A stretch of 30,479 nt of DNA from IMG/VR virus record IMGVR_UViG_3300008110_008601, positions 1 to 30,479 of that record. One strand, 5' to 3'. Of this stretch, positions 760 through 27,667 are shown one piece after another. The translations under genes were made by a program, and so were the position numbers. The notes under the pieces were generated by a model. The model was not told where the DNA came from and searched no databases. It saw only the letters and a list, made by a program, of their open reading frames with translations. Within the stretch, counting starts at the first letter, position 1, and each line of letters begins with the position of its first letter. This DNA comes from a virus.

Positions 760-1194
760 TTATTGGAGAGTTGATCTTAACATCCAGGCATGTTTTTTAT
801 GAATATCAATACGATCTTGCAAGAAATTGGCTAAACCATGCTCAGAATTTTGCTCTGCTGCAAGAAATGCTTGAGTCAAAGCATCTATTACTTTATCATT
901 ATCTTGAATAGCAATTGATATCATTTGTTGGGCTGGTACTACATCAGTTTGATCTTTAATTAATGTCAAATCAATAAAACGTGATAAAGATCCTGGTGCA
1001 AATCCTTTTGCTGCTCTAATATGTTCGGCAATAGAATCATTAGCAGCAAATACTTCCTCATAAAGATCACCAAAAAATTCATGATATTGAGGAAAGTTTG
1101 GACCTGTTACATTCCAATGAAAAAAATGTAATTTAAGGTAAAAAGAAAAATTAGTGGCTAGTAACACTTTAAGTTTTTCTAATAGTTGTTCCAT
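760..1194 (-). CDS. dps: Dps-family ferritin-like protein
   Basis: This is a 144-residue protein of the Dps family, which forms 12-subunit shells that oxidise and store iron with peroxide and may bind DNA. The family signature FFHWNVTGPNFPQYHEFFGD is at residues 24-43. Ferroxidase ligands are present at H26, H38, D53 and E57, with the spacing of E. coli H51, H63, D78 and E82. The position matching E. coli D67 is G42, next to D43. There is no long lysine-rich N-terminal tail, so DNA binding is uncertain. The ATG overlaps the upstream stop (TAATG) after a GGAG Shine-Dalgarno, so translation is probably coupled. It sits among virion genes, which suggests late expression. Confidence 0.88.
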   Translation of the reverse strand: MEQLLEKLKVLLATNFSFYLKLHFFHWNVTGPNFPQYHEFFGDLYEEVFAANDSIAEHIRAAKGFAPGSLSRFIDLTLIKDQTDVVPAQQMISIAIQDNDKVIDALTQAFLAAEQNSEHGLANFLQDRIDIHKKHAWMLRSTLQ

Positions 1195-1376
1195 TATTCG
1201 TCTCCGCTTCCAGATGCGCCACCACCACTGCCGCCACCTGAGCTAGCACTTTTTCCGGGGTAAGCTATGTGTATTTTCATATCAGCTCCTCTATAAGGAA
1301 GCTTTTTTAATTTAATTAATTTACCGTCAGGACCCCTAACAGCAAGTTCTTCAATATGTTGTTTAAAGGTTTTCAT
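1194..1376 (-). CDS. Small protein with capsid-targeting-like N-terminus and Gly/Ser tail
   Basis: A 60-residue protein of no recognised family. It begins MKTFKQHIEE followed by L, matching the pattern of the T4 capsid-targeting sequence MKTYQEFIAE, in which the prohead protease cuts after an (I/L)-x-E triplet. The last 20 residues are almost only Gly, Ser and Ala ending in an acidic GDE. It overlaps the preceding gene by ATGA and the dps gene by TAATG, so it is embedded in a coupled operon. It may be a small head-internal protein. Apart from the targeting-like peptide there is no functional evidence. Confidence 0.6.
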   Translation of the reverse strand: MKTFKQHIEELAVRGPDGKLIKLKKLPYRGADMKIHIAYPGKSASSGGGSGGGASGSGDE

Positions 1377-1684
1377 ATTTCTTCAACTTTTATTTTTAAA
1401 TGACCTTGACCTTTGATCACTCTATGAAATTCTTCTGCGGGAATATCAATTCTTGTTCCTGTTTTAATATTAAAAGGTAGTTCGTTATCAAATTGAAATT
1501 GCCAATCATCTCCACACTCAATAACTTCAACTACTCTGTATTTCTTATCTCTATGCCAGATCAGATCACCTGATTCAACATCTTCTTCAAATACTCTACT
1601 GAATTTATTATCAGATAATTTTGTATCTGAATATGGATTACCAATAGAAGCTGCCACCACCAGAAAGTCCCAAAGCTTTTGCAT
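1373..1684 (-). CDS. Hypothetical protein, start uncertain
   Basis: About 104 residues if the ATG at 1684 is used. That start overlaps the upstream gene by 47 bases and has no Shine-Dalgarno. A GTG pair lies nearer the upstream stop (TAA, 1638-1640). The conserved-looking part is the C-terminal 75 residues, with FEEDVESGDLIWHRDKKYRV and a beta-rich tail ending KIKVEEI. It looks like a small single-domain phage protein. No family is recognised. The stop overlaps the next ATG (ATGA at 1373-1376). Translation may depend on re-initiation from the upstream gene. Confidence 0.5.
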   Translation of the reverse strand: MQKLWDFLVVAASIGNPYSDTKLSDNKFSRVFEEDVESGDLIWHRDKKYRVVEVIECGDDWQFQFDNELPFNIKTGTRIDIPAEEFHRVIKGQGHLKIKVEEI

Positions 1685-2201
1685 AACGAGGAAGATTACA
1701 TGACCAATAAGCAGCAAATGTTCTATCTTTTTGAAGATGACATTTATGACGAGCAGCAAATGATTTACGTGCTTCTGGATCATTCATTTTTACTGAAAGA
1801 GTTGCACCAGAAGCCGCACCATGAACATCGCCAAATGTTACCTTCTTAATTCCACCGTCTGGTTTACGAACATAGACGTAGAACTTCTTTGGACCACCTC
1901 TTCTTGGTTTACCAATTGGTGGATTTTTTTCATCTTCTTCATTTAAGGGAAGATCAAGAGGAACTTCCTGCCCCTCATATAATCCAAAAGAACCAATATC
2001 TGTTTTGATCAATTCAATATCTGAATATGAAAGATCAATCTTTTCTTCATTATATAATTTACGAGCTTCGTTGATGGTTTCAAAAAATTGTTCTGAACCG
2101 TAACGAAATACAGATTCATTCAAAGGGATATTATTTTCTAAATGATATAGAAGACCTTTGTGCGCAGATTCGTCAAGAAAGTATTCTTTAAAAGATTTCA
2201 T
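1638..2201 (-). CDS. Phage head-associated protein with capsid-targeting-like start
   Basis: 187 residues. The ATG at 2201 is chosen because it follows the upstream stop (2209) with an AGAAGG-like site, and because the resulting N-terminus MKSFKEYFLDE|S matches the T4 capsid-targeting pattern. Longer starts would run into the upstream gene. The C-terminal 80 residues (KKFYVYVRKPDGGIKKVTFG, then ARKSFAARHKC and DRTFAAYWSC) resemble a domain I recall from proteins in T4-like cyanophage structural regions. The two Cys and the His near RHKCH could form a metal site, but this is inference. Molecular function is unknown. Confidence 0.65.
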   Translation of the reverse strand: MKSFKEYFLDESAHKGLLYHLENNIPLNESVFRYGSEQFFETINEARKLYNEEKIDLSYSDIELIKTDIGSFGLYEGQEVPLDLPLNEEDEKNPPIGKPRRGGPKKFYVYVRKPDGGIKKVTFGDVHGAASGATLSVKMNDPEARKSFAARHKCHLQKDRTFAAYWSCNLPRYAKALGLSGGGSFYW

Positions 2202-2208
2202 TTTATTA

Positions 2209-4617
2209 TTAACCTTCTGATTTCCAACCACCACCTTTTGATTTATACCATTTAGCAGCCCAACCATTGGCATAAGCAGATGGATATACATCAAATTTAC
2301 TTTTTGCTAAAGCTTTAGCTCTGGACCAAAGAGCAGGATTAGTAGGTATATTCTTTTCTTCTAGATGTTCCACTTCTTCATTCTTTGGTCTCTTTTTTGC
2401 TTTTTGCATAGCAATAGCAATAGCAGCCTGTTGTGCCCAATTTTTAGCTTCTGGAATTTCTTCAGTCTCTTCTTTCATTTTCTGCATTATTGAACCAGCA
2501 ATCTTTTTGCCACGTTCTAATGAAATATTTAATTTTTTAGAGTATTGTTTAGCTGTTCTTTCAAACCAACCCTTATCTTCCGAAATCTTACCTTTTCCGA
2601 AGTTAGAAACATTGATTGGTTCACCCTTTCGTTCAGGATTTGGATCATGTTTGCGCTTTGCTCGTACAGCAGCTGCTCTTTCACTTTTAGAGAGTTTAGC
2701 TCTCTTTTCATTTGACATACATTTTGGTTTAGCCTCACCAGGTTCCCTTGCACAAGGTCCAATCACTTCACCTTTTGAGTTCAACCTTTTCCAACCACCC
2801 TCAGGATCTGTTTTACTAAACCATTTACGAAGATCTTCTTTTACTTCCTGATCCGTTAATGATTCTTCTTTAACTGGAACTGAACCAACTTTTGAACCAA
2901 ATCTTATTTTATCAACGGCTCTTTGAAGAGTATCAGAGGCTGTTCTAGTCTTAGAGGGTTTTGGTTTAACACCTCCAATAATATCAGGGCCAAGTGATCT
3001 AAGTTTGTTTACCTTACCAACCAATTCAGGAGAAATCTCTTGTAGATTTTCTTTGTTAAAATTATTATAAAAAGCTAAATCAAGATCTTCTTTTTTATCT
3101 TTCTTTTTATTCATGATCTGATCTTCAGTATCTGAATCCTCAGTATCCACCACTGATGCATTGTTGGTATGTATACCATGATGTGCTTTTACCATCGCAT
3201 TGATGATATTATTTCTAGTATCTGCATCATCTGCATTTTTATCAACATAACCTTCACTGTCCCCATCGGGATTACCTGATACATTACCAAAACCTCTTAT
3301 TCCACCTGATCCAGCAGAATTAACAGATTCGTTTTTTTCTTTATCAAGAATGGCTTGATAATCTTTACCAGCTTGCTGTAATCTAGCTTTGGCAGCCTGT
3401 GCTCTTTCTTCGCTATCCTTTAGTTTAGGTAAAGCTCTAACCATCTTTTCCCAAGGTGATAATTTCTTACCTTCATCAACAATTTTTTTTTGAATAGATT
3501 GTTGACGATATGGCTTATCAGATTCTTTTCTATCAGCATCATCTCTTGGAACAAGATCAATTTCTTTTCTATCTTGACCAGAACGAGGAACAGCTTCTCT
3601 ATACTTACCAAATCTCTTATTAAATTCAGAATCGGTTGCTTCTTTTACAGATGTATTTGGCTTAGTAATTTTAGCAGGTGCAGGAGCAGTATTATTACCA
3701 ACTACCTTGGATGATTTGGGCTCACCAGGTGTAACATGTTTAGATAGTGTCACAACTGAATCTGATCCATCTTCTCTAAATTTAGTTTCATCATAATTAA
3801 TATTTTCTTCTGCAATCACCTGATCATAAATTGATCCAATTTCCTCAACTAATGATTCTACAATAAATGAACCAAATTCATTGTCAATATCTTCTTTGAT
3901 TGATTTGATATGATTAGCAATTTCTTCTGCATGAGGGTGCAATGCTTTAGGAAGACCTTTTTTCAAACCCTTTATATCTCCAGCTCGAGCCAATGATCTA
4001 GCTTTTGTACCTGACATACCTTCAGCACCTTCAGCATCAGGATCTCTATGACCAGCAGAAACTACTTTAATGGATTTAAAATTAAAATAACTGTGTGGGC
4101 CTTCTTTACCATTATACTTGTTAATTAAAGAATGAAATTCTTTTACCCTATCATCACCTGCAACCATAGTAATATGCTGAACACCGCTCTTATGAAGACG
4201 GGAAAGATGATGAAGAAGAGTAGGATGCTCAGAAGAAGAACTAGAAACATTAGTGCCTTCTCCGGCAATCTTTTTAAGATACTCAACTTTCTTTTCCTTT
4301 GGAAGTGGATTTTTTGCATTGCCTTCAGTATGAGAAGCAATGATATGGGCTTCAGCACCTTGTGATTTGGCAGTATCCTCAACTTTATGAATTAATTTTT
4401 CATGACCAATTGTAGGAGGATTAAAACGGCCAAATGCAAATACAGCTTTTCTTTCTTTAGCTTCCAATACAGGATTTAAAATGATTTCATCTGGTTTATT
4501 GCCAGTAGCAGTTCTGCCTTTAGAGATGACATCCTTGACTATCTCTGTCTTACCCTTTTTTGCAGGTTTATTATCGGGTTTCAAAATATTTTGCTGAGGA
4601 TCATTATATTCTGGCAT
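2209..4617 (-). CDS. Nucleotidylyltransferase-domain fusion protein, virion region
   Basis: 802 residues. Residues 55-235 form a HIGH-type nucleotidylyltransferase domain: AFGRFNPPTIGHEKLI at 61-76 (HIGH equivalent TIGH), VAGDDR at 152-157 and SGTKAR at 202-207 (ISxTxxR-like). Such enzymes join a nucleotide to a phosphorylated small molecule. The substrate is not predictable here. Residues about 240-590 are low-complexity and charged, probably disordered. The C-terminus has small basic domains: FSKTDPEGGWKRL with a Cys pair near residues 610-630, KHDPNPERKG, and a final YPSAYANGWAAKWYKSKGGG block. The location among virion genes suggests a structural or head-packaged role. It lacks the targeting-like start of its neighbours. 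Confidence 0.7.
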   Translation of the reverse strand: MPEYNDPQQNILKPDNKPAKKGKTEIVKDVISKGRTATGNKPDEIILNPVLEAKERKAVFAFGRFNPPTIGHEKLIHKVEDTAKSQGAEAHIIASHTEGNAKNPLPKEKKVEYLKKIAGEGTNVSSSSSEHPTLLHHLSRLHKSGVQHITMVAGDDRVKEFHSLINKYNGKEGPHSYFNFKSIKVVSAGHRDPDAEGAEGMSGTKARSLARAGDIKGLKKGLPKALHPHAEEIANHIKSIKEDIDNEFGSFIVESLVEEIGSIYDQVIAEENINYDETKFREDGSDSVVTLSKHVTPGEPKSSKVVGNNTAPAPAKITKPNTSVKEATDSEFNKRFGKYREAVPRSGQDRKEIDLVPRDDADRKESDKPYRQQSIQKKIVDEGKKLSPWEKMVRALPKLKDSEERAQAAKARLQQAGKDYQAILDKEKNESVNSAGSGGIRGFGNVSGNPDGDSEGYVDKNADDADTRNNIINAMVKAHHGIHTNNASVVDTEDSDTEDQIMNKKKDKKEDLDLAFYNNFNKENLQEISPELVGKVNKLRSLGPDIIGGVKPKPSKTRTASDTLQRAVDKIRFGSKVGSVPVKEESLTDQEVKEDLRKWFSKTDPEGGWKRLNSKGEVIGPCAREPGEAKPKCMSNEKRAKLSKSERAAAVRAKRKHDPNPERKGEPINVSNFGKGKISEDKGWFERTAKQYSKKLNISLERGKKIAGSIMQKMKEETEEIPEAKNWAQQAAIAIAMQKAKKRPKNEEVEHLEEKNIPTNPALWSRAKALAKSKFDVYPSAYANGWAAKWYKSKGGGWKSEG

Positions 4618-4640
4618 CTGCTTTCCTAATGTTTATTTTA

Positions 4641-4648
4641 TATTTATT
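4641..4648 (-). promoter_or_regulatory. Probable late promoter variant AATAAATA
   Basis: The minus strand reads AATAAATA followed by TAAAATAAACATTAGG, 24 bases before the ATG at 4617. The downstream bases closely match those after the TATAAATA at 7886-7893. Confidence 0.4.
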
Positions 4649-4652
4649 GTTC

Positions 4653-6005
4653 TTAATAAACTTCTCGCCATTGCATAGTAGTTGCAACATATGTAGTATT
4701 AACAGTTGAAAGATTGGTAGCAGTTACTACAAATACCTGTGAATCATTGCTATAAAAATTTTGTGCAATATAGTTCTTTTTTGCTGTGCTTGGCATATTA
4801 GGGCTTGTTGCACCAGCAGATGGTGATGCAGAAGCAGCTCTTGGATTATTAGCTGTAGCAAACCCGCCATCCATTACTTCTCCATCATCATAGTTAGTAG
4901 CAGTAATATTGTACTGTACACCACTAGAAGAATGAACGTTTACCCAAGCACCCCCGGTAATTACTGAAGTGTTTGCAAGTTTAATAACATCATATCTAAC
5001 ATTCTCATCTGTAGATATGATAGAAATATTACCTAATCTTGCAATCATTCTATTTGAATAACCATTGAAAGAGTCTTTCAATTTAATAGCCATAATTGGT
5101 GTAGTATTACCGCCTGCGAGTAATCTCAAACCACTATGCCAAGAAAAATCTTGCCCTGATTCTAAATAACCACCTTCAGATATTACTGTAGAACATATCT
5201 GATCCATAAAAGCATTCGCTGCTCTTGTACCTGTATTAAATATCTCACATCTTACAGGAAGATTAGGACTGCTCATATAGACTTTATCTAGATTATTGCT
5301 ATTATAGTATTCGTGTGCGGGAACAAATCTCCCATCATGAACAAATCCTGTACGAACTCTACCAACTCCCAGCCATTGAAAGTCAATAAACACAATTTGT
5401 GTTTTAGTAATATCTAAATTAAAACCTGAAGGACCTTTTCCATCACAAGTATCTACATTCCAATTAGCTTGTGTTACTTTTCTGCTATCGTCAGGTGATC
5501 CACTAGTATAAGTTCTAATACAGAAACTTAATGTTCCATCACCAGCTTGTTCAAAGTAAATACCGTTATTATCATCATAATACCCTGTACGTTTGGTAAC
5601 GTTTGTATTTGCACCATAGAAATTAAATGTTGATTTAATAAGTTGACTCTTTCCAGGCATATAATGATGATAGAATTTAGTCTGATGAATAACACTACTG
5701 GTTGAATTGTTTGCAGTAGTAAGACGGCAGCAGGCTTGATTAGGTAAAAATGTTACCGAACCGTTTGCCGTAGTAATATCTTCAAACGCAGGATCAATAC
5801 CGTAAAGATGTTTGTAGTCACCTAATGTAAAAGCATCAGATGTTCTTAATCTACCAAATGCATCGGACTGCCCTGCTTCTAATGCTACTGGAAATCTATT
5901 ATAATCATCATAAAATTGACCGTTGCTATCGGCAGTCATTACTACTTCAAATATAGTATTTCCATCAGCTAAGAATTTATTTGTGTCACGTCTATATTGT
6001 GCCAT
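4653..6005 (-). CDS. Virion structural protein (fibre/decoration-like)
   Basis: 450 residues without signal peptide or membrane segment. The N-terminal third includes VALEAGQSDAFGRLRTSDAF, and the (S/D)AFGRLR motif recurs near the N-terminus of many marine phage structural proteins. The remainder is Gly/Asn/Ser/Thr-rich and predicted to be beta-structured, with VGRVRTGFVHDGRFVPAHEY mid-protein, and it ends in TTMQWREVY. It is likely a head fibre, decoration or tail-fibre-like protein. The start ATG at 6005 follows a GAGGATAA site, and the stop lies 35 bases before the next gene. Homology search is needed to assign which virion part it builds. Confidence 0.6.
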   Translation of the reverse strand: MAQYRRDTNKFLADGNTIFEVVMTADSNGQFYDDYNRFPVALEAGQSDAFGRLRTSDAFTLGDYKHLYGIDPAFEDITTANGSVTFLPNQACCRLTTANNSTSSVIHQTKFYHHYMPGKSQLIKSTFNFYGANTNVTKRTGYYDDNNGIYFEQAGDGTLSFCIRTYTSGSPDDSRKVTQANWNVDTCDGKGPSGFNLDITKTQIVFIDFQWLGVGRVRTGFVHDGRFVPAHEYYNSNNLDKVYMSSPNLPVRCEIFNTGTRAANAFMDQICSTVISEGGYLESGQDFSWHSGLRLLAGGNTTPIMAIKLKDSFNGYSNRMIARLGNISIISTDENVRYDVIKLANTSVITGGAWVNVHSSSGVQYNITATNYDDGEVMDGGFATANNPRAASASPSAGATSPNMPSTAKKNYIAQNFYSNDSQVFVVTATNLSTVNTTYVATTMQWREVY

Positions 6006-6013
6006 TACAAAAT

Positions 6014-7147
6014 TTATCCTCTACCAAATCTTGGATTATTCAATATTGCTGTTGATATTTTTCTTGGAACTAGTTTTGCAACAGGTCTTCCACCTTTTTG
6101 AAGAACAACACCCTCACCTGCTGATTTCTTTCCATCAATAGATGTTTCCATATCAGGGTGATGAACACCCTTAAGAACATGCTCTGTTGCTTGTTCTAAA
6201 TGATGATGTATATCTAAAGACTTTTGAAAATGTTCTGCATGCTTATCAACATGAGCAATCATAGCAGCATGCTGATCTCTTACTCTTTGTTGAGCAGCAG
6301 ATGTCTTTAATTTAGATGCTTTCTTTTCAGCAACTGCCTTAAGATGATTCTTATATCCTTCAACAGTAGGTAAAGAGTTGCCTCGTGTTGTGCTATTCAT
6401 ATAAGTTGTAAAATGAGTAACATGTTCAGGAGTCAAATGCTTTGTTGTATGACCCTTGAGAAGCTTCTCAGCGGCAGCAAGATGATGTTCTGTTGCTTTT
6501 CTGTCTTCTGCTGAATAATGTTGTGGATCTGGTTTATGCTCATGTTCAGGTACAAATACATGTTCACTATGTCTCAAAGCACCCTTTGATAAAGCAGAAG
6601 CGGTTTTACCATGAACTTCAGTGTGAATAGCCACACCAAGTGGTGCCTTTGTTTTTGCTTTATATGTGATTCTGTTTGGTGTTGTTGAGATAGAACTACC
6701 AGACTTCTTTGTATGTGTATCAGAAGGGGTATGTAATAGATCACCTTGTACATGATGACCTTTGTTTACAATCTCGTGACCATGTGCAAGAAGATGTTTT
6801 AAAGATTTTGCATATTCAGGTGCATGACCAAAATGTTTGTCTACTTCTTCTGGAGTTCTGGCAACTACACCTCTTGCCCATCTATGCTTATCAGATACAC
6901 CAATTCCTTTTTCATCGTGAATGATATGAACAGAAGCACCACCATCAGTCTTCAAAGAAGCCTTAATTGTACTAGGCTTGCCTTGTCTATGATTATGAAA
7001 TTGTTTAATCAGATCCAAACCAGTCTTTACATGTTTAGGATCAGCATAATGTAATTCTTTAGCATGAGTAAGATGGGTTAACCCTTCTTCCTCAACAGAT
7101 GAGGCAGGACGAGCAGCTTCTGTAATATAATTTAAAAATGTTTTCAT
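6014..7147 (-). CDS. Polynucleotide-ligase-like nucleotidyltransferase-fold protein, putative head-packaged
   Basis: 377 residues. The order of motifs resembles the covalent nucleotidyltransferase (ligase/capping) fold: K66-T-D-G (motif I KxDG), VQGDLL at 133-138 (motif III, usual E replaced by D136), EGVVLQ at 345-350 (motif IV) and AKLVP with K358 (motif V). Related T4-like phage proteins carry KWDG at the same place. The middle (200-330) is His/Lys-rich and helical. The N-terminus MKTFLNYITE|A is nearly the T4 capsid-targeting sequence, suggesting packaging and cleavage after residue 10. The stop of the upstream gene overlaps this ATG (TGATG). Activity as a ligase is inference. It could be a structural derivative of the fold. 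Confidence 0.6.
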   Translation of the reverse strand: MKTFLNYITEAARPASSVEEEGLTHLTHAKELHYADPKHVKTGLDLIKQFHNHRQGKPSTIKASLKTDGGASVHIIHDEKGIGVSDKHRWARGVVARTPEEVDKHFGHAPEYAKSLKHLLAHGHEIVNKGHHVQGDLLHTPSDTHTKKSGSSISTTPNRITYKAKTKAPLGVAIHTEVHGKTASALSKGALRHSEHVFVPEHEHKPDPQHYSAEDRKATEHHLAAAEKLLKGHTTKHLTPEHVTHFTTYMNSTTRGNSLPTVEGYKNHLKAVAEKKASKLKTSAAQQRVRDQHAAMIAHVDKHAEHFQKSLDIHHHLEQATEHVLKGVHHPDMETSIDGKKSAGEGVVLQKGGRPVAKLVPRKISTAILNNPRFGRG

Positions 7148-7860
7148 CAGTAAAACTTACTAACTTTTCTTGATGCCTCGGGGCCAACCAATACTCTGGT
7201 TTTGTTTACACCAAGGTCAGATCTCTTTTTATCAGCTCTTGCAAAAACCATCATATGCATATCTTTAGGAACTTCACCACTCTTATAAACATGATTTGAT
7301 TGTAAAATGTAATGACCTTTTTTACCATTAGGATGAGGAACCAACTTCATTGGACCTTGATGAATCTCATGTACATTATTTTCATGATGTGATTCATCAC
7401 CGTGTCCATGACCATACATTGCCTTTTGAATAAAGCTCTTATGTTCTGGATTAGAACTATCAAGCTTCATAGCAACTGTCTCACCAGATACACCCTCTGG
7501 ATGCTTATTCTTTAATACTGAGGCAAACTTTTTAACAATTAGATGATCCTTAAATTTAGACACACCACCAAATTGTTGAAAGTCTTTTACAGAGTTACCA
7601 TCTTTATGGCTAATAAATCTTTGTGATTGGCCTGCTTTATTTTTAAGAACAAAGTCTGCTTTAGGAGTTCCAGGAACCTTTTCAACACTACTTACTTTAG
7701 TAGGACCATGCTGTGTGTGAATTGTAATTTCTTCAGAACCTGATTCTTTTTTAGCTTTTTCAATTTGACCATGAAGATCAGCTAAATGACCTTCTTCCTT
7801 TTCATAAGGATTAGAACCGGGCATTCTTCTTTCTGTAAGAAAATTTAAAAATGTAAGCAT
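7147..7860 (-). CDS. Putative PD-(D/E)XK-like protein with capsid-targeting-like start
   Basis: 237 residues. The N-terminus MLTFLNFLTE|R fits the head-targeting and prohead-protease pattern. Around residues 63-100 it reads GTPKADFVLKN, then RFISHKDGNSVKDFQQFGGV. An Asp (D69) followed after about 15 residues by S-H-K86 in a beta strand resembles the D...(E/S)xK core of PD-(D/E)XK nucleases. The rest is basic and His-rich (GHGHGDESHHENNVHE near 150-165) and ends in a conserved-looking VLVGPEASRKV. A consensus late promoter lies just upstream. Nuclease activity is a hypothesis from one weak motif. It may instead be a purely structural internal protein. Confidence 0.5.
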   Translation of the reverse strand: MLTFLNFLTERRMPGSNPYEKEEGHLADLHGQIEKAKKESGSEEITIHTQHGPTKVSSVEKVPGTPKADFVLKNKAGQSQRFISHKDGNSVKDFQQFGGVSKFKDHLIVKKFASVLKNKHPEGVSGETVAMKLDSSNPEHKSFIQKAMYGHGHGDESHHENNVHEIHQGPMKLVPHPNGKKGHYILQSNHVYKSGEVPKDMHMMVFARADKKRSDLGVNKTRVLVGPEASRKVSKFY

Positions 7861-7885: not shown

Positions 7886-7893
7886 TATTTATA
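7886..7893 (-). promoter_or_regulatory. T4-type late promoter TATAAATA
   Basis: Exact TATAAATA on the minus strand, 26 bases before the ATG at 7860 and just downstream of a terminator (7901-7926). It starts the virion transcription unit that runs left from here. Confidence 0.75.
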
Positions 7894-7900
7894 GAAATAA

Positions 7901-7926
7901 AAAAGAGGGCCTTTCAGCCCTCTTTT
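7901..7926 (-). terminator. Rho-independent terminator after the 7938-8153 gene
   Basis: Perfect stem AGAGGGC/GCCCTCT (7904-7910 with 7917-7923), extended by A-T pairs to 7901-7926, with a 6-base loop. On the minus strand it is followed by a run of T. It separates the accessory region from the late virion operon. Confidence 0.85.
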
Positions 7927-8218: not shown

Positions 8219-9142
8219 TTAGTTAATTTGTGACAAAATCTTCTTTACTTCACCTTTTTGAGCGTCATTTAGAGGAATATAGTCCAAATCCTCAGCATCT
8301 TTGTCTCTTGTAAAGGTAAATTCAAAAAACTTAATGGCTTGTTTTGTCACTTCTTTATCTTCATTATTCTTATACATTACCACATAGGTTGTCGCTACCA
8401 TTGGCCATGTGGTCTGAAAAGCCTTAATACCAGGAGATACTCTCTTACCATCAGTGCCAATCATATCAGCAACTTTAAGATTGTTCTGCTTGGCAAATGC
8501 ATACTCAACATAACCGATAGAACCGTTAGTCTGCATTACGTTAGATGCAACACCATCATTTCCTTTACCCCCAATAGTTGTACCAGCCCATTCAATAGAT
8601 GAACCTTGGCCAAAGTCTTTCTTCCAATCTGCATTTGCTTCTGAAAGATACTTCGTAAAGTTCCAGGTAGTACCTGAACCATCTGAACGACGAATCTTAA
8701 TAATAGGAAGATCAGGAAGCTTTACATCTGGATTGATATCTGCAATCTCTTTATCATTCCACTTCTTAATCTTATCCATATAGATCTTTGCAATAAGATC
8801 ATTATTGAGAACTAGATTATCTACTTCTTTGAGATTAACTACAGCAACAATACCTCCAACAATAATTGGAAATTGAACCTGACCTTTCTTCTCAAGGTCT
8901 TCTGGTTTTACTGGTGCATCAGTTGCACCAAATGTTACTGTCTTTGCATCAATCTGTTTAATACCTGCACTTGAACCAATTGATTGATAGTTTACTTTAA
9001 TACCTGATGATTTGTCATATTCTGTTGCCCATTTAGAGGCAATGGGAAAAAAGAAAGATGAACCTGCACCTGTGACTTCACCTGCAAAGGCTGAAGCTGC
9101 AATAAACATAGATCCGACAACGGCAAGAATGTTCTTTAACAT
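8219..9142 (-). CDS. pstS: Periplasmic phosphate-binding protein PstS
   Basis: 307 residues, normal length for PstS, the periplasmic receptor that delivers phosphate to the PstCAB importer (presumably the host's). The Sec signal peptide is residues 1-20, with cleavage after ASAFA. Phosphate-binding segments are visible: GAGSSFFFPI (26-35), GSSAGIKQ, FGATDAPV and the Arg/Ser loop RRSDGSGTTWNF. No pstC, pstA or pstB gene lies nearby. AGGAG precedes the ATG. The upstream gap holds a terminator (9161-9186) and a Pho-box-like promoter (9188-9221), suggesting induction through host PhoB during phosphate starvation, as described for cyanophage pstS genes. Confidence 0.97.
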   Translation of the reverse strand: MLKNILAVVGSMFIAASAFAGEVTGAGSSFFFPIASKWATEYDKSSGIKVNYQSIGSSAGIKQIDAKTVTFGATDAPVKPEDLEKKGQVQFPIIVGGIVAVVNLKEVDNLVLNNDLIAKIYMDKIKKWNDKEIADINPDVKLPDLPIIKIRRSDGSGTTWNFTKYLSEANADWKKDFGQGSSIEWAGTTIGGKGNDGVASNVMQTNGSIGYVEYAFAKQNNLKVADMIGTDGKRVSPGIKAFQTTWPMVATTYVVMYKNNEDKEVTKQAIKFFEFTFTRDKDAEDLDYIPLNDAQKGEVKKILSQIN

Positions 9143-9268: not shown

Positions 9269-9907
9269 TTAGAAACTCAATGCATAATTGAGCATTACAC
9301 CATCACCTGAATTGTTCCAATTCTTATCATATGAACGTGAAACTGAAACACCAACAGCTTGATCCTTAGCGAACTTATAAGTTACACCAGTACCAACGTT
9401 ATGTGATTCATAATTCCATTGTGCATCAAAAGAATTACGGTAACGGTAGTTAGCAGCATTGATAACAATGTTATCAGTAAGGCTGTAGTCAGTACCTGCA
9501 CGAAGTGCATAGTATCCATAATTAGCACCATCGGTAAAACGTTGACCGATGCCTGCACCAGCCTTAGCAGTGAAACCAGCAAAAACTGGAAGCTTATAGC
9601 CAGCCTGTGCTTCAATAGTCTGCTTCAATGCACCAGCATCAGCTGCTTGGTTTGTACCAGCCGCAACTCCAGCTGAAAAACCACCACCAATGTTACGTGA
9701 ATATGCTACAGAATAGTTAGTAGCAGTTGACTTGCTATATTCACCTGATGTGAAGTCGAGACCCCAACCAGCTGAAATCGTATTGTCTGCAGATGCTGCA
9801 GGTGCTGCTGCAGTTGCTGCAGGAGCGTTCTTCTTATTAGGAAGATCTGTAGCATATGCGCCAGTTGCAAAAGCAATAGCGGCTGCAGTAATAAGTAGCT
9901 TCTTCAT
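9269..9907 (-). CDS. Outer-membrane beta-barrel protein
   Basis: 212 residues. The signal peptide is residues 1-19 (MKKLLITAAAIAFATGAYA). A short Ala/Pro-rich linker (about 25-40) and alternating polar/aromatic beta strands follow, ending in a terminal Phe (MLNYALSF), the signature for outer-membrane insertion. The start TDLPNKK after the cleavage site resembles alphaproteobacterial surface proteins. Base use is visibly richer in G and C than in the neighbours, suggesting recent acquisition from a cell. AAGGAG precedes the ATG. It lies upstream of pstS and ends at the terminator at 9161-9186. Possible roles are a pore for phosphate, surface remodelling or exclusion of other phages. None is proven. 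Confidence 0.8.
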   Translation of the reverse strand: MKKLLITAAAIAFATGAYATDLPNKKNAPAATAAAPAASADNTISAGWGLDFTSGEYSKSTATNYSVAYSRNIGGGFSAGVAAGTNQAADAGALKQTIEAQAGYKLPVFAGFTAKAGAGIGQRFTDGANYGYYALRAGTDYSLTDNIVINAANYRYRNSFDAQWNYESHNVGTGVTYKFAKDQAVGVSVSRSYDKNWNNSGDGVMLNYALSF

Positions 9908-19481: not shown

Positions 19482-20429
19482 TTACCAAATAAAATGATTA
19501 TTATAATGGTCAACTATAGACGGAAGTTCTTCATCAAATATTTTTTTATTATTCCATCCCAATGATTTCAATTTAGAATCATCAATGCTGTATCGTAAAT
19601 CTTGACCTAATCTATTAACATTGAAATCAACAAACTTTTTATAATCATTTGGATCTATGTTAATTAAACTTAATATTTTTTTAAATATCTCTAAATTGGA
19701 TGTTTCGAAATTTCCACTTATATTAAAGATATCATTTTTAATTTTATTATCCATCAAAAATATAATTGCATCTGCTGTATCTTGTGCATGTAACCACACT
19801 CGACGAGGTGTACCATTTAAATGTAGAGGTGCTGGTTTTCCTAAGGAAAGATATTTACAGGTCTTGGGAATAAATTTTTCTACATATTGACCAATACCAT
19901 AATTGTTAGTAGGTCTAACAATAAGGAAAGGTACACCATATGTTCTATGCCAGGCTAATACTAACATATCAGCACTTGCTTTTGTTGCACTATATGGATT
20001 ACTAGGATGCATCAGATCTTTTTCTGTAAAAGATCCTTGATCAATATCCCCATAGACTTCATCTGTACTAATTTGAATTAACACAGGCATATTATAATTC
20101 TTTTTGGTCTGAATAAGTCTTAGAAGATTATGAACACCATCAATATTACTTCTAACAAATATATCATTATTAACAATGCTGTTATCAACATGGGTTTCAG
20201 CTGCAGTGTTAATTATATAATCACAATCATATAACATATCTAGGTCGTTAATATTTTTCTTTAGATATGTAAAATTACTGTAGGAATTGAATTCTGTTAG
20301 CAAACCAACATCAGATGCATATGTTTCACAGTCAACACCCATAACATGCCAACCTTTTTGAAGGCATGTTCTTGTTATATAACTACCAATAAAACCTAAA
20401 CAGCCTGTAACATATACAGAATAGATCAC
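19482..20429 (-). CDS. rmlB: dTDP-glucose 4,6-dehydratase (RmlB-like)
   Basis: 315 residues with a GTG start in a GTGA overlap with the upstream transketolase part. NAD motif GCLGFIGSY (9-17), AAETHVDNSI, QISTDEVYGD (dehydratase triad), HPSNPYSATKASADML (Tyr-x3-Lys), RPTNNYGIGQYVEKFIPK and VNRLGQDLRYSID follow the RmlB template from end to end. It makes dTDP-4-keto-6-deoxyglucose, the branch point to many deoxysugars. A second RmlB-like gene is at 16572-17597, so the two may act on different nucleotide sugars. Confidence 0.9.
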   Translation of the reverse strand: MIYSVYVTGCLGFIGSYITRTCLQKGWHVMGVDCETYASDVGLLTEFNSYSNFTYLKKNINDLDMLYDCDYIINTAAETHVDNSIVNNDIFVRSNIDGVHNLLRLIQTKKNYNMPVLIQISTDEVYGDIDQGSFTEKDLMHPSNPYSATKASADMLVLAWHRTYGVPFLIVRPTNNYGIGQYVEKFIPKTCKYLSLGKPAPLHLNGTPRRVWLHAQDTADAIIFLMDNKIKNDIFNISGNFETSNLEIFKKILSLINIDPNDYKKFVDFNVNRLGQDLRYSIDDSKLKSLGWNNKKIFDEELPSIVDHYNNHFIW

Positions 20430-20905
20430 AATGTTCTCCGAATATTTACATAGCTGGGTTTATTGTTGAAAATAAAATCATTCCAACAAGATGTCAAGTC
20501 ATCAAGTGTGTTAGGTATATATTGCACTATATTTGATAATAAATCAAGGGCTTCTGTATCACCTGTTGCGTCATGACTATATCCTTGACCATAGTCATCA
20601 CCTCTTCCTATACCAATTAATTTTACTGGAATATTTTCATTATCCAAATATAAACGGTGCCATTCAAAGGGTCTAAAAATTAAAAATGGAGTGATGCTGT
20701 AACACAAAGGAATTTTACCACTTTGTGCCAAACCAATAGCAGCGCCAACCATCAACTGTTCACTGGCACCTACATTAATAACTCTTTCGGGAAATTCATT
20801 TCTTATTTTATCCAAGACACCAAAACCTAAGTCTGCTGTAATTACCCATACATCATCATTTTCTTTTAATGTTTTATATAAAAGTTCACTCAATAACTTT
20901 CGCAT
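20426..20905 (-). CDS. Split transketolase, pyrimidine-binding (central) domain
   Basis: 159 residues. It covers only the transketolase Pyr domain: VITADLGFG near the start, RVINVGASEQLMVGAAIGLA (41-60) with the invariant glutamate E49 that activates thiamine diphosphate, and GIGRGDDYGQGYSHDATGD (the family GxxxGxxH-T loop). The usual third C-terminal domain is absent. It overlaps the upstream N-terminal half by 16 bases and so should form a two-subunit enzyme with it. Such split transketolases are found in sugar clusters where they move two-carbon units onto nucleotide-linked or free sugars. The substrate here is unknown. Confidence 0.85.
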   Translation of the reverse strand: MRKLLSELLYKTLKENDDVWVITADLGFGVLDKIRNEFPERVINVGASEQLMVGAAIGLAQSGKIPLCYSITPFLIFRPFEWHRLYLDNENIPVKLIGIGRGDDYGQGYSHDATGDTEALDLLSNIVQYIPNTLDDLTSCWNDFIFNNKPSYVNIRRTL

Positions 20906-21510
20906 ATTTCTTTATAGTCCTCAGGTTTCAAAACATAATAATGTGTAAGCAATCCCTTTGCAAAACTCCAATTAGGTGTTTCACTAACTCTGATATTAAT
21001 ATTAGGTAAGAAAGCTTTAAGTCTATTAATTAGATAATCATTGTCAAGATAGTCATAGGCACTCTGACCATTAATATTAACATAAACATGCAGATTGTTT
21101 AATTTATTAACATGAATAAATCTAAGACTTTCCCATATACTACCTTCTGCGGCCTCACCATCAGTGATCAAACAATAAACATTCTTTCTACGATCTGCAA
21201 GAGCATGACCAACTGCAATAGGTAGTCCACACCCTAGACTACCTGTACTACACCATATATCATTTTCAATATCACGTTTAGGATGTATGCTATGTTTTTT
21301 TAAAAGCATTACAGCATCAATACCTTTACGTTCTTCTATCTCACAATATAATGCTAGACCAGCATGACCACTGCTTAAAATGAAAACCTCATCAGGTTGT
21401 TTCTTATCATAAATTTCATGAATGATAGGCCATGCACTGAGACTACTGCTTAGATGGCTGATTTTTTGTTCATAGGTAATATCAATTATTCTTTTTTCAG
21501 TCTTATGCAT
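20890..21510 (-). CDS. Split transketolase, thiamine-diphosphate-binding N-terminal domain
   Basis: 206 residues, equal to the transketolase PP domain. SSGHAGLALYCEIEE (46-60) is the family SxGHAxxxLY block, GSLGCGLPIAVGHALAD the substrate/diphosphate loop, and ITDGEAAEGSIWE (115-127) with N147 thirty residues after D117 forms the ThDP-Mg motif. The usual GDGE is TDGE and the usual DNNG is NING. It pairs with the downstream Pyr-domain protein. Placement inside an epimerase, methyltransferase and glycosyltransferase operon points to branched or extended sugar synthesis rather than the pentose phosphate pathway. Confidence 0.88.
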   Translation of the reverse strand: MHKTEKRIIDITYEQKISHLSSSLSAWPIIHEIYDKKQPDEVFILSSGHAGLALYCEIEERKGIDAVMLLKKHSIHPKRDIENDIWCSTGSLGCGLPIAVGHALADRRKNVYCLITDGEAAEGSIWESLRFIHVNKLNNLHVYVNINGQSAYDYLDNDYLINRLKAFLPNINIRVSETPNWSFAKGLLTHYYVLKPEDYKEICESY

Positions 21511-25973: not shown

Positions 25974-26552
25974 TTAGTCTTGTTTAGCTTTGTTAAGGAG
26001 GTAGTTGAGCAAGACACCATAAATCGGAAGGATAATAATCAAGCTGATAATAGTCTTGAAAACAACATCGGTATTTGCAATTGCAAGCCAATTAGCTGCC
26101 ATATATTCATTAGTGCTATTATAGAATGCTGCACCAAAGAATGCATATGTGTCTACAACGTTAGCAAAGATACCAGAAGCAAATGGTGCTACCCACCATG
26201 CTTTAAATTTTTCACGGACCTGTTGAAATACAGTTACGTCAAACAATTGGCCTATGAGATAAGCAACAGCTGAAGCTACACCAATACGCCAATCAGAGAG
26301 AGCAGCACTAATAATTGCTGCTGGAATAAAAGCCATACCAACAACAACTCTTGATTGATGTTTGTTAGTAAGACGTGTAGTTAAGTCGGTTGCTACAAGA
26401 ACTAATGGAAATAGAAACATAGCCCATGATGCTTTGAATCCAAATACTTCAAGAGGAAATTGAACAATATAATTTGCAAGTCCAATGATGAATACATGAA
26501 CTAGCATAAGCTTTAATGCAAGACTTTTATTTACTTCTGAGAAATTAATCAT
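25974..26552 (-). CDS. yhhQ: Queuosine precursor transporter (YhhQ/VUT family)
   Basis: 192 residues with about six hydrophobic membrane segments. The family signature is clear: [20 protein letters not shown] (53-72), [20 protein letters not shown] and [20 protein letters not shown]. Members import preQ0 or preQ1, the deazaguanine precursors of queuosine, across the inner membrane. It overlaps guaC by ATGA and ends at a terminator, making a compact nucleobase unit. It could raise tRNA queuosine or feed 7-deazaguanine modification of phage DNA, which is known for several phages. No DNA-inserting DpdA gene is visible in this window. Confidence 0.93.
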
Positions 26553-27667
26553 ATAGTGTTCCTTTCGAAAACATTGTTATATTGTTGAGTAACACGAACA
26601 AATGTTGTACACTTACTAAGATACTTTAACTTAGAAGCTCCCACGTACGTACATGCCGATCTCAATCCACCTAGTATATCTTGTACTGTATCAGATATTT
26701 TACCTTTATACGGTACAAGAACCTCTCTTCCTTCTGAAGAGCGGTATTCCTTAAGACCACCAAAATGTTTATCATTGGCAGCTTTAGAGCTCATTCCATA
26801 AAATTTAATGTATTTCTTTTCCTCAGTAATTGGTTTATAGGTATCCCAATCACGATCATATTTCCATTCACCTGTATGGAGATATTTAGTAAACAGTTCT
26901 CCACCACCTTCATCGTGGCCAGCAAGCATACCACCAAGCATTACAAAGTCAGCACCAGCTGCAAATGCTTTAGCAACATCGCCAGGAGAAGTACAACCAC
27001 CATCAGCAATGATATGCCCACCAAGTCCATGAGCAGCGTCTGCACACTCGATAACCGCTGAGAGTTGCGGATAGCCAACACCAGTCTTAATACGGGTAGT
27101 GCAAACAGAACCAGGACCAATGCCCACTTTAACGATATCAGCTCCAGCAAGAATTAACTCCTCTGTAATATCACCAGTAACAACATTACCTGCAATAATT
27201 GTAAGTAAAGGATAATTGTTTCTTGCATGTTTGACTACATCAATAAAACGTTCTGTATAACCGTTTGCAACATCAATACAAACATATTTTAATTTGCTTG
27301 AATGGCTGTAAACATGATGAAGCTTGTTTAGATCTTCTTCGCCAATACCGATACTCATAGCGGTATGATCTTGTACACGAAGATCTAATATATTTGAATC
27401 GCGTAGATATTCAACTATTTCTTCTTGTGTGTAATGTTTAACTAAACAAGTAAATAAACCTGTATTAGCCAATGAAGATGCTATTCTACGTGTACCCACA
27501 CCATCCATATTAGCGGCCATGATAGGAATACCAGAATATTCCATCTGACTATTACGAAAAGTATATTGACGGAAAAGATCTACTTCTTTTCTGGAAGTAA
27601 GTGTACTGCGTTTAGGTCTTAGGAGTACATCTTTAAAATCAAGTTTGAGTTCATTATCAATACGCAT
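26549..27667 (-). CDS. guaC: GMP reductase GuaC
   Basis: 372 residues, a little longer than E. coli GuaC. It reduces GMP to IMP and ammonia with [25 protein letters not shown] surrounds the catalytic C189, and the following [20 protein letters not shown] and [13 protein letters not shown] match GMP reductase rather than IMP dehydrogenase. No CBS insert is present. The ATG overlaps the stop of a 29-residue ORF (TAATG) and has no Shine-Dalgarno of its own, suggesting coupled translation. In an AT-rich phage it could shift guanine nucleotides from host RNA towards adenine nucleotides. Confidence 0.95.

Follow-up and report, generated by a model that had tools for sequence, protein, structure and literature searches.

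The phage T4 proteins IPI, IPII, IPIII and Alt carry a capsid-targeting sequence (CTS) that is cut by gp21. This leader comprises about ten residues, with aromatic residues at positions 4 and 7 and (I/L)-x-E at positions 8-10; residues 4 and 7 serve targeting, residues 8 and 10 processing, and a review already suggests that the CTS allows T4-like phages to package various proteins. Here, we analysed a 30.5 kb IMG/VR record (IMGVR_UViG_3300008110_008601; this whole stretch of 30,479 nucleotides is called the window) of an aquatic phage, a freshwater virus of bacteria. Four minus-strand genes within positions 1194-7860 begin with a T4-like CTS, and we consider it probable that this cluster encodes late-expressed internal head proteins of the T4 type with a removable tag.

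The locus resembles T4 in the form of the leader, in the gp21-type protease of its clade, in diverse mature parts and in the ADP-ribosyltransferases among the cargo of relatives. It differs in its cargo, which comprises ligase-like, NMNAT-like and unknown proteins in the cluster and dozens of families across relatives (among the matches listed), in the exchange of cargo between tag and polyprotein insertion, and in that cleavage and injection are here inferred. Polyvalent proteins and MuF/portal fusions (Iyer 2017, PMC5512222; PMC9503650) are likewise enzymes packaged in the head and predicted to be injected, ART and GNAT domains among them, and an ART-PolyVal domain stands behind a CTS in L101. 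However, those systems rely for delivery on being fused to head proteins or to large multidomain proteins, whereas the window's clade mostly uses single proteins with a short removable tag and fusion as the alternative. The propeptides of ejection proteins of the giant phages phiKZ and SPN3US share with the predictions for our locus the cut after Glu by a gp21 relative and the mass of ejected proteins; in the accessible portion of the source, the SPN3US cleavage motif is A-x-E (PMC10052503), and the accessible accounts of both phages present no comparable short shared leader. Finally, NMNAT/cytidylyltransferase, SAM hydrolase and APH-like kinase from cyanophage virions (PMC10665884, PMC9602691) are the same or homologous proteins, and the named ones carry a CTS, but the accessible portions of these papers report no targeting signal and leave contamination open. 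The T4 peptide string was not found in open-access papers, and capsid targeting and cyanophages occurred together only in the above-mentioned review (open-access literature; subscription papers were outside the search). The T4 CTS principle is known, while we did not find the scale of tagging, the range of enzyme cargo or the tag/polyprotein exchange described in the open-access literature.

Results

The earlier note on this DNA had proposed four proteins with a shared T4-like N-terminus, and all four leaders are indeed present in open reading frames (ORFs) of the window. On the minus strand, the cluster starts with a 237-amino-acid (aa) protein (7147..7860) with the leader MLTFLNFLTE|R at 7831-7860 (the bar marks the predicted cut), followed by a 377-aa protein (6014..7147), whose leader MKTFLNYITE|A at 7118-7147 precedes DUF6267 (Pfam, E=5.5e-28). 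Further along the same strand lie a 187-aa protein (1638..2201; mature part phrog_7595) and a 60-aa protein (1194..1376), the latter with MKTFKQHIEE|L at 1347-1376 ahead of a short basic, Gly-rich part. Correcting the earlier reading, the leader of the 187-aa protein is longer by one residue (MKSFKEYFLDE|S, 11 residues), and its start codon at 2201 is internal to the longest ORF (1638-2294, minus strand). The leaders of the 377-aa and 237-aa proteins have aromatic residues at 4 and 7, I/L at 8 and E at 10; the 187-aa protein shows this arrangement lengthened by one residue, and the 60-aa protein, with His at 7, shows it in part.

CTS-like patterns occur at 6 of the 602 open ATGs of the window, and four of these six are the leaders described here. 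Using the background rate of the remaining open ATGs, the chance that 42 genes would include four or more CTS-like starts is about 1e-5; the four leaders are therefore not explained by chance. The same cluster stands out in larger relatives: in G003 (118 kb), which encodes a DUF6267 protein 97% identical to the window's along with T4-type portal, terminase, sheath and tube genes, and in G004 (110 kb), CTS matches at likely gene starts concentrate there, and most remaining matches are internal or unlikely ATGs.

Across IMG/VR, a DNA pattern for MKTFxxFIxE matched at least 120 stretches, versus 5 for the scrambled pattern MTKFxxIFxE. The statements that follow refer to the matches listed, which lie almost all at ORF starts. 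When 129 proteins with a length of 40 aa or more were clustered by BLAST on their sequence beyond residue 10, they formed 66 unrelated cargo families, an approximate number, as BLAST families may conceal remote homology. Positions outside the pattern were also constrained (5 and 6 mostly Q/E; 9; 11 A/S), while from about residue 12 onward conservation was indistinguishable from background, which places the boundary at the predicted cut. Such constraint at free positions together with a sharp boundary is as predicted for a cleaved, portable leader. Family matches identified tagged cargo as cytidylyltransferase-like, adenylate kinase, zeta-toxin-like P-loop, GNAT, HD hydrolase, ART-PolyVal ADP-ribosyltransferase, HNH, Cpn10, glucosaminidase and deoxyribonucleotidase proteins; most other tagged cargo gave no family match. 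At L095:7000-9422, four consecutive genes are CTS-tagged, with mature parts mutually unrelated by BLAST. Contig G002 and the window encode identical DUF6267 proteins; on G002, a 205-aa CTS protein (L033:1003-1620; MKTFNQFIIE) without PHROG match lies apparently about 10 kb past the right end of the window.

The leader is kept while the cargo changes. An alignment of 17 DUF6267 proteins, the most distant with 22% identity, shows F4 and E10 among the residues conserved at 90% or more, and a variable stretch behind the leader. The gene beside DUF6267 is exchanged: it encodes 237 aa in the window and 316-341 aa with an own CTS in L005, L007, L011 and L014. The mature domain of the 237-aa protein is homologous to residues ~98-253 of relatives of 316-325 aa (phrog_13937); compared to the L011 and L014 forms, it is without the ~80 residues following the CTS but retains the CTS itself. 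The 60-aa protein has an orthologue in L011 that starts with MKTFKQFMED. Many BLAST families, a boundary near residue 11 and the cargo swap (among the matches listed) together show a leader that is independent of the mature part.

A fifth cargo, overlooked by the earlier reading, is an NMNAT-like cytidylyltransferase domain that has its own CTS in relatives. In the window it is inserted (residues ~53-250, 3868-4461, minus strand) into an 802-aa polyprotein without CTS (2209..4617, minus strand), and a gp21-type site, V50-L51-E52 (4462..4470, minus strand), stands directly ahead of it. The NMNAT-like reading is based on cytidylyltransferase families and on the annotation of relatives. Residues 1-56 and 253-800 of the polyprotein match a separate 709-aa ORF of L006, residues 50-247 a separate L006 protein that starts with MKTFSQYITE, and tagged ORFs of cytidylyltransferase-like appearance are present in L011, L014 and L018. 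The insertion starts at VLE52|A, aligned with the ITE10| cut site of the tagged stand-alone form in L006. This site at residue 52 is also present in L003, L005 and L007, L008 has VQE|A, and the L006 polyprotein without insert reads IKE| at the same place, so that the border of the insert is a conserved (V/I)xE site across relatives. The reverse exchange was found as well, the window's tagged 187-aa protein being the untagged polyprotein C-terminus in L011 and L012. Because of this exchange in both directions, and because S-CREM2 gp160, a homologue of the polyprotein tail, is present in virions (PMC10665884), tag and polyprotein look like alternative ways into the head, and we infer that the 802-aa polyprotein is a core protein. 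Between portal and gp21, L171 (8760-11403) contains large charged ORFs with repeated KEEVE.. stretches; these ORFs resemble the polyprotein tail and are possibly core polyproteins.

The head machinery expected for such tags is found in the clade, outside the window, which does not extend to these genes. L171 and G003 have identical portals, and L171 encodes gp21 (GELGHP, GVSTRG), gp22 and gp23. By tblastn with the HTVC008M gp21 as query, together with our own alignment, gp21 was detected in 6 of the 16 strict-pattern contigs; 9 of the 16 had a T4-type terminase match (some partial), and all five contigs above 100 kb are among those with these T4-type matches. Neither gene was found in either of two control contigs. 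The Peptidase_S77 profile (PF03420) gave no match in the window and nine relatives, and none in the control either, and is hence uninformative.

The cluster has putative late promoters. A T4-type candidate, TATAAATA (7886..7893, minus strand), lies about 26 nucleotides upstream of the first CTS gene. It follows a hairpin that, with its T run, resembles a terminator (7899..7922, minus strand; read from the sequence) and separates the cluster from the upstream gene. Another precedes the 802-aa gene by 24 nucleotides (4641..4648, minus strand; core ATAAATA at 4641-4647). Since the ATAAATA core is no more frequent in the window than by chance, the late-promoter reading rests on its location on the coding strand near gene starts and not on frequency.

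Virion proteomes of cyanophages provide a comparison. In S-CREM2, the pattern was found in 6 of 219 coding sequences, and virion proteomics had detected five of these six (PMC10665884 Table 3; Fisher p=0.003), the regular expression having been picked with motif variants already known. The tagged virion proteins are the SAM hydrolase gp6, gp13, the APH-like kinase gp14, gp136 and the cytidylyltransferase gp154; a cytidylyltransferase is also present in S-SM1 virions (PMC3037559). The tagged NMNAT of S-SCSM1 (MKSFLQFLKE) likewise belongs to the virion proteins of its phage (PMC9602691). S-CREM2 gp12 (L170:7704-10313; annotated Cas9-like, in the virion) reads LRFASFMAEA near its annotated start, which resembles a CTS, but was not counted because the codon ahead of RF is CTG and not ATG, GTG or TTG. 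The S-SCSM1 virion protein gp93 (L254:31626-31835) ends in the CTS-like C-terminus KRTFKEFLEYIE, perhaps a second docking position.

Several points weigh against our reading of the cluster, in addition to the retrospective choice of the S-CREM2 pattern. S-CREM2, S-SCSM1 and S-SM1 are phages other than the window's, and the S-CREM2 authors could not exclude co-purified contaminants among such enzymes (PMC10665884). S-SCSM1 is a weak second proteome test, as only one of four loose matches was detected; gp30 (MKTFKQFMSE) and two looser ones are not labelled as virion proteins. Virion detection is biased toward large, abundant proteins. The leaders of the HTVC008M orthologues are degenerate, and LxE sites are not significantly enriched in the 802-aa polyprotein. 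The His of the 60-aa protein, a further correction to the earlier reading, occupies one of the two T4 targeting positions; at the equivalent place, its orthologues in L005 and L007 have Phe (MVKTFREFLDE).

With regard to cargo function, the earlier ligase-like label finds support in the 377-aa protein. K66-x-D68-G69, Q134, D136, E345-G346-x-V348 and K358-L359 are invariant in 17 sequences and G135 nearly so; KxDG, a III-like element (QGD), EGxV and the lysine of motif V (KL) are what we take to be motifs of the ligase/nucleotidyltransferase superfamily. In a fold search with the DUF6267 model, the displayed matches were DNA/RNA ligases or ligase complexes, each individually weak (best E=0.0097, low TM-scores). 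Neither DUF6267 nor the cytidylyltransferase domain had a credible relative among solved structures when searched by sequence. For the 237-aa protein, previously called possibly nuclease-like, this description holds at the motif level: D69 and S84-H85-K86 (D...SxK) are invariant in six sequences and the order of elements is compatible with PD-(D/E)xK, with Ser instead of Asp/Glu in the (D/E)xK position. Since a fold search gave no significant match, we do not claim a nuclease.

Discussion

Our findings suggest the following scenario. Aromatic residues at about positions 4 and 7 would dock the leader to the prohead core, and the terminal (I/L)-x-E would be the cut site. The tag would carry its protein into the prohead, where a gp21-type protease would cut after E10 or E11. 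The mature ligase-like, possibly nuclease-like and two small proteins would then stay in the DNA-filled head and enter the host with the DNA. The NMNAT-like domain would get in differently, carried within a core-like polyprotein and bordered by gp21-type sites. Tag identity, boundary, portability, fusion exchange, the protease of the clade and virion location in other phages are features that comparison supports. The earlier note had proposed a packaged set of proteins delivered to the host. Judged from the boundary, gp21, the cargo swap, the virions of other phages and the late promoter, predicted packaging and gp21-type cleavage of the window's proteins are strongly supported by comparison; injection, a role as 'first-minute effectors' and enzyme action in the host would follow by analogy with T4.

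The same peptide might be a prohead-core docking tag of proteins that do their work inside the producing cell, as scaffold, in DNA condensation or in end repair while heads are assembled and DNA is packaged, rather than as injected effectors. In favour of this, one protein of the cluster is a virion structural protein and another a core-like polyprotein, cargo that is small and basic (the 60-aa protein, for example) would fit, and T4 IPIII influences head morphogenesis (PMC9026906). We nevertheless regard this as unlikely: cargo is extremely variable among close relatives and includes ART, GNAT and HD hydrolase, catalytic domains without assembly role, and in T4, Alt and IP proteins that bear tags of this kind reach the host by ejection. 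It is less probable still that some leaders target without being cut, so that tagged proteins stay bound to the core or disappear together with it. With Asp at position 10, a T4 leader still targets but is no longer processed, and the L011 orthologue of the 60-aa protein has just this residue, but all four window copies terminate in x-E, and position 11 favours A/S over the 66 families (among the matches listed), as expected of a used cut site. We give very little credence to an N-terminus unrelated to the head, reflecting one gene family's ancestry or a translation-start preference of ordinary cytoplasmic enzymes. K-rich, A/T-rich starts are frequent in such genomes and some mature parts may share undetected common ancestry; however, the 66 listed families are unrelated by BLAST, conservation stops at the cut site, a scrambled pattern of like composition is rare, tagged proteins were detected in S-CREM2 and S-SCSM1 virions, and a late promoter candidate lies ahead of the cluster.

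The head-packaged, removable tag that we favour offers a testable reason why enzymes like NMNAT, SAM hydrolase and an APH-like kinase are recovered with purified cyanophage particles, a finding that the original authors were unable to distinguish from contamination. With it, a ten-residue pattern can serve to predict which proteins of abundant aquatic phages are packaged and probably injected, among them many without other functional clue. The tag/polyprotein exchange amounts to a natural experiment in which the two halves of the signal, targeting and cleavage, come apart. Beyond this, and with more doubt than confidence, we propose that the CTS may serve T4-superfamily phages quite generally as an address tag that can be moved between proteins, and that in the window's phage the packaged ligase-, nuclease- and NMNAT-like proteins may together make up a ready kit for nucleic-acid repair and NAD restoration, which would act before phage gene expression and reach the head by two interchangeable routes, tag or core-polyprotein insertion. 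If true, packaged, injected proteins of these phages could be read directly from genomes.

Other genes of the window

A 450-aa virion structural protein without CTS (4653..6005, minus strand; phrog_1645, E=1.7e-115) is encoded between the DUF6267 and polyprotein genes. Directly behind the 60-aa CTS gene, positions 760-1194 encode a Ferritin/Dps-like protein (Pfam Ferritin, E=7.8e-23) without CTS; a DNA-binding Dps-like protein adjoins the genes of predicted packaged proteins. On the other side of the cluster, a phage-encoded PstS-like phosphate-binding protein of periplasmic type (8219-9142) and an outer-membrane beta-barrel (9269-9907) were found. Two adjacent ORFs at 20426-21510, inside a sugar-nucleotide/glycosyltransferase cluster, encode the halves of a transketolase-type enzyme, and at 25974-27667 a Vut_1-type transporter, perhaps for a queuosine precursor, adjoins an IMPDH/GMP-reductase-like gene.

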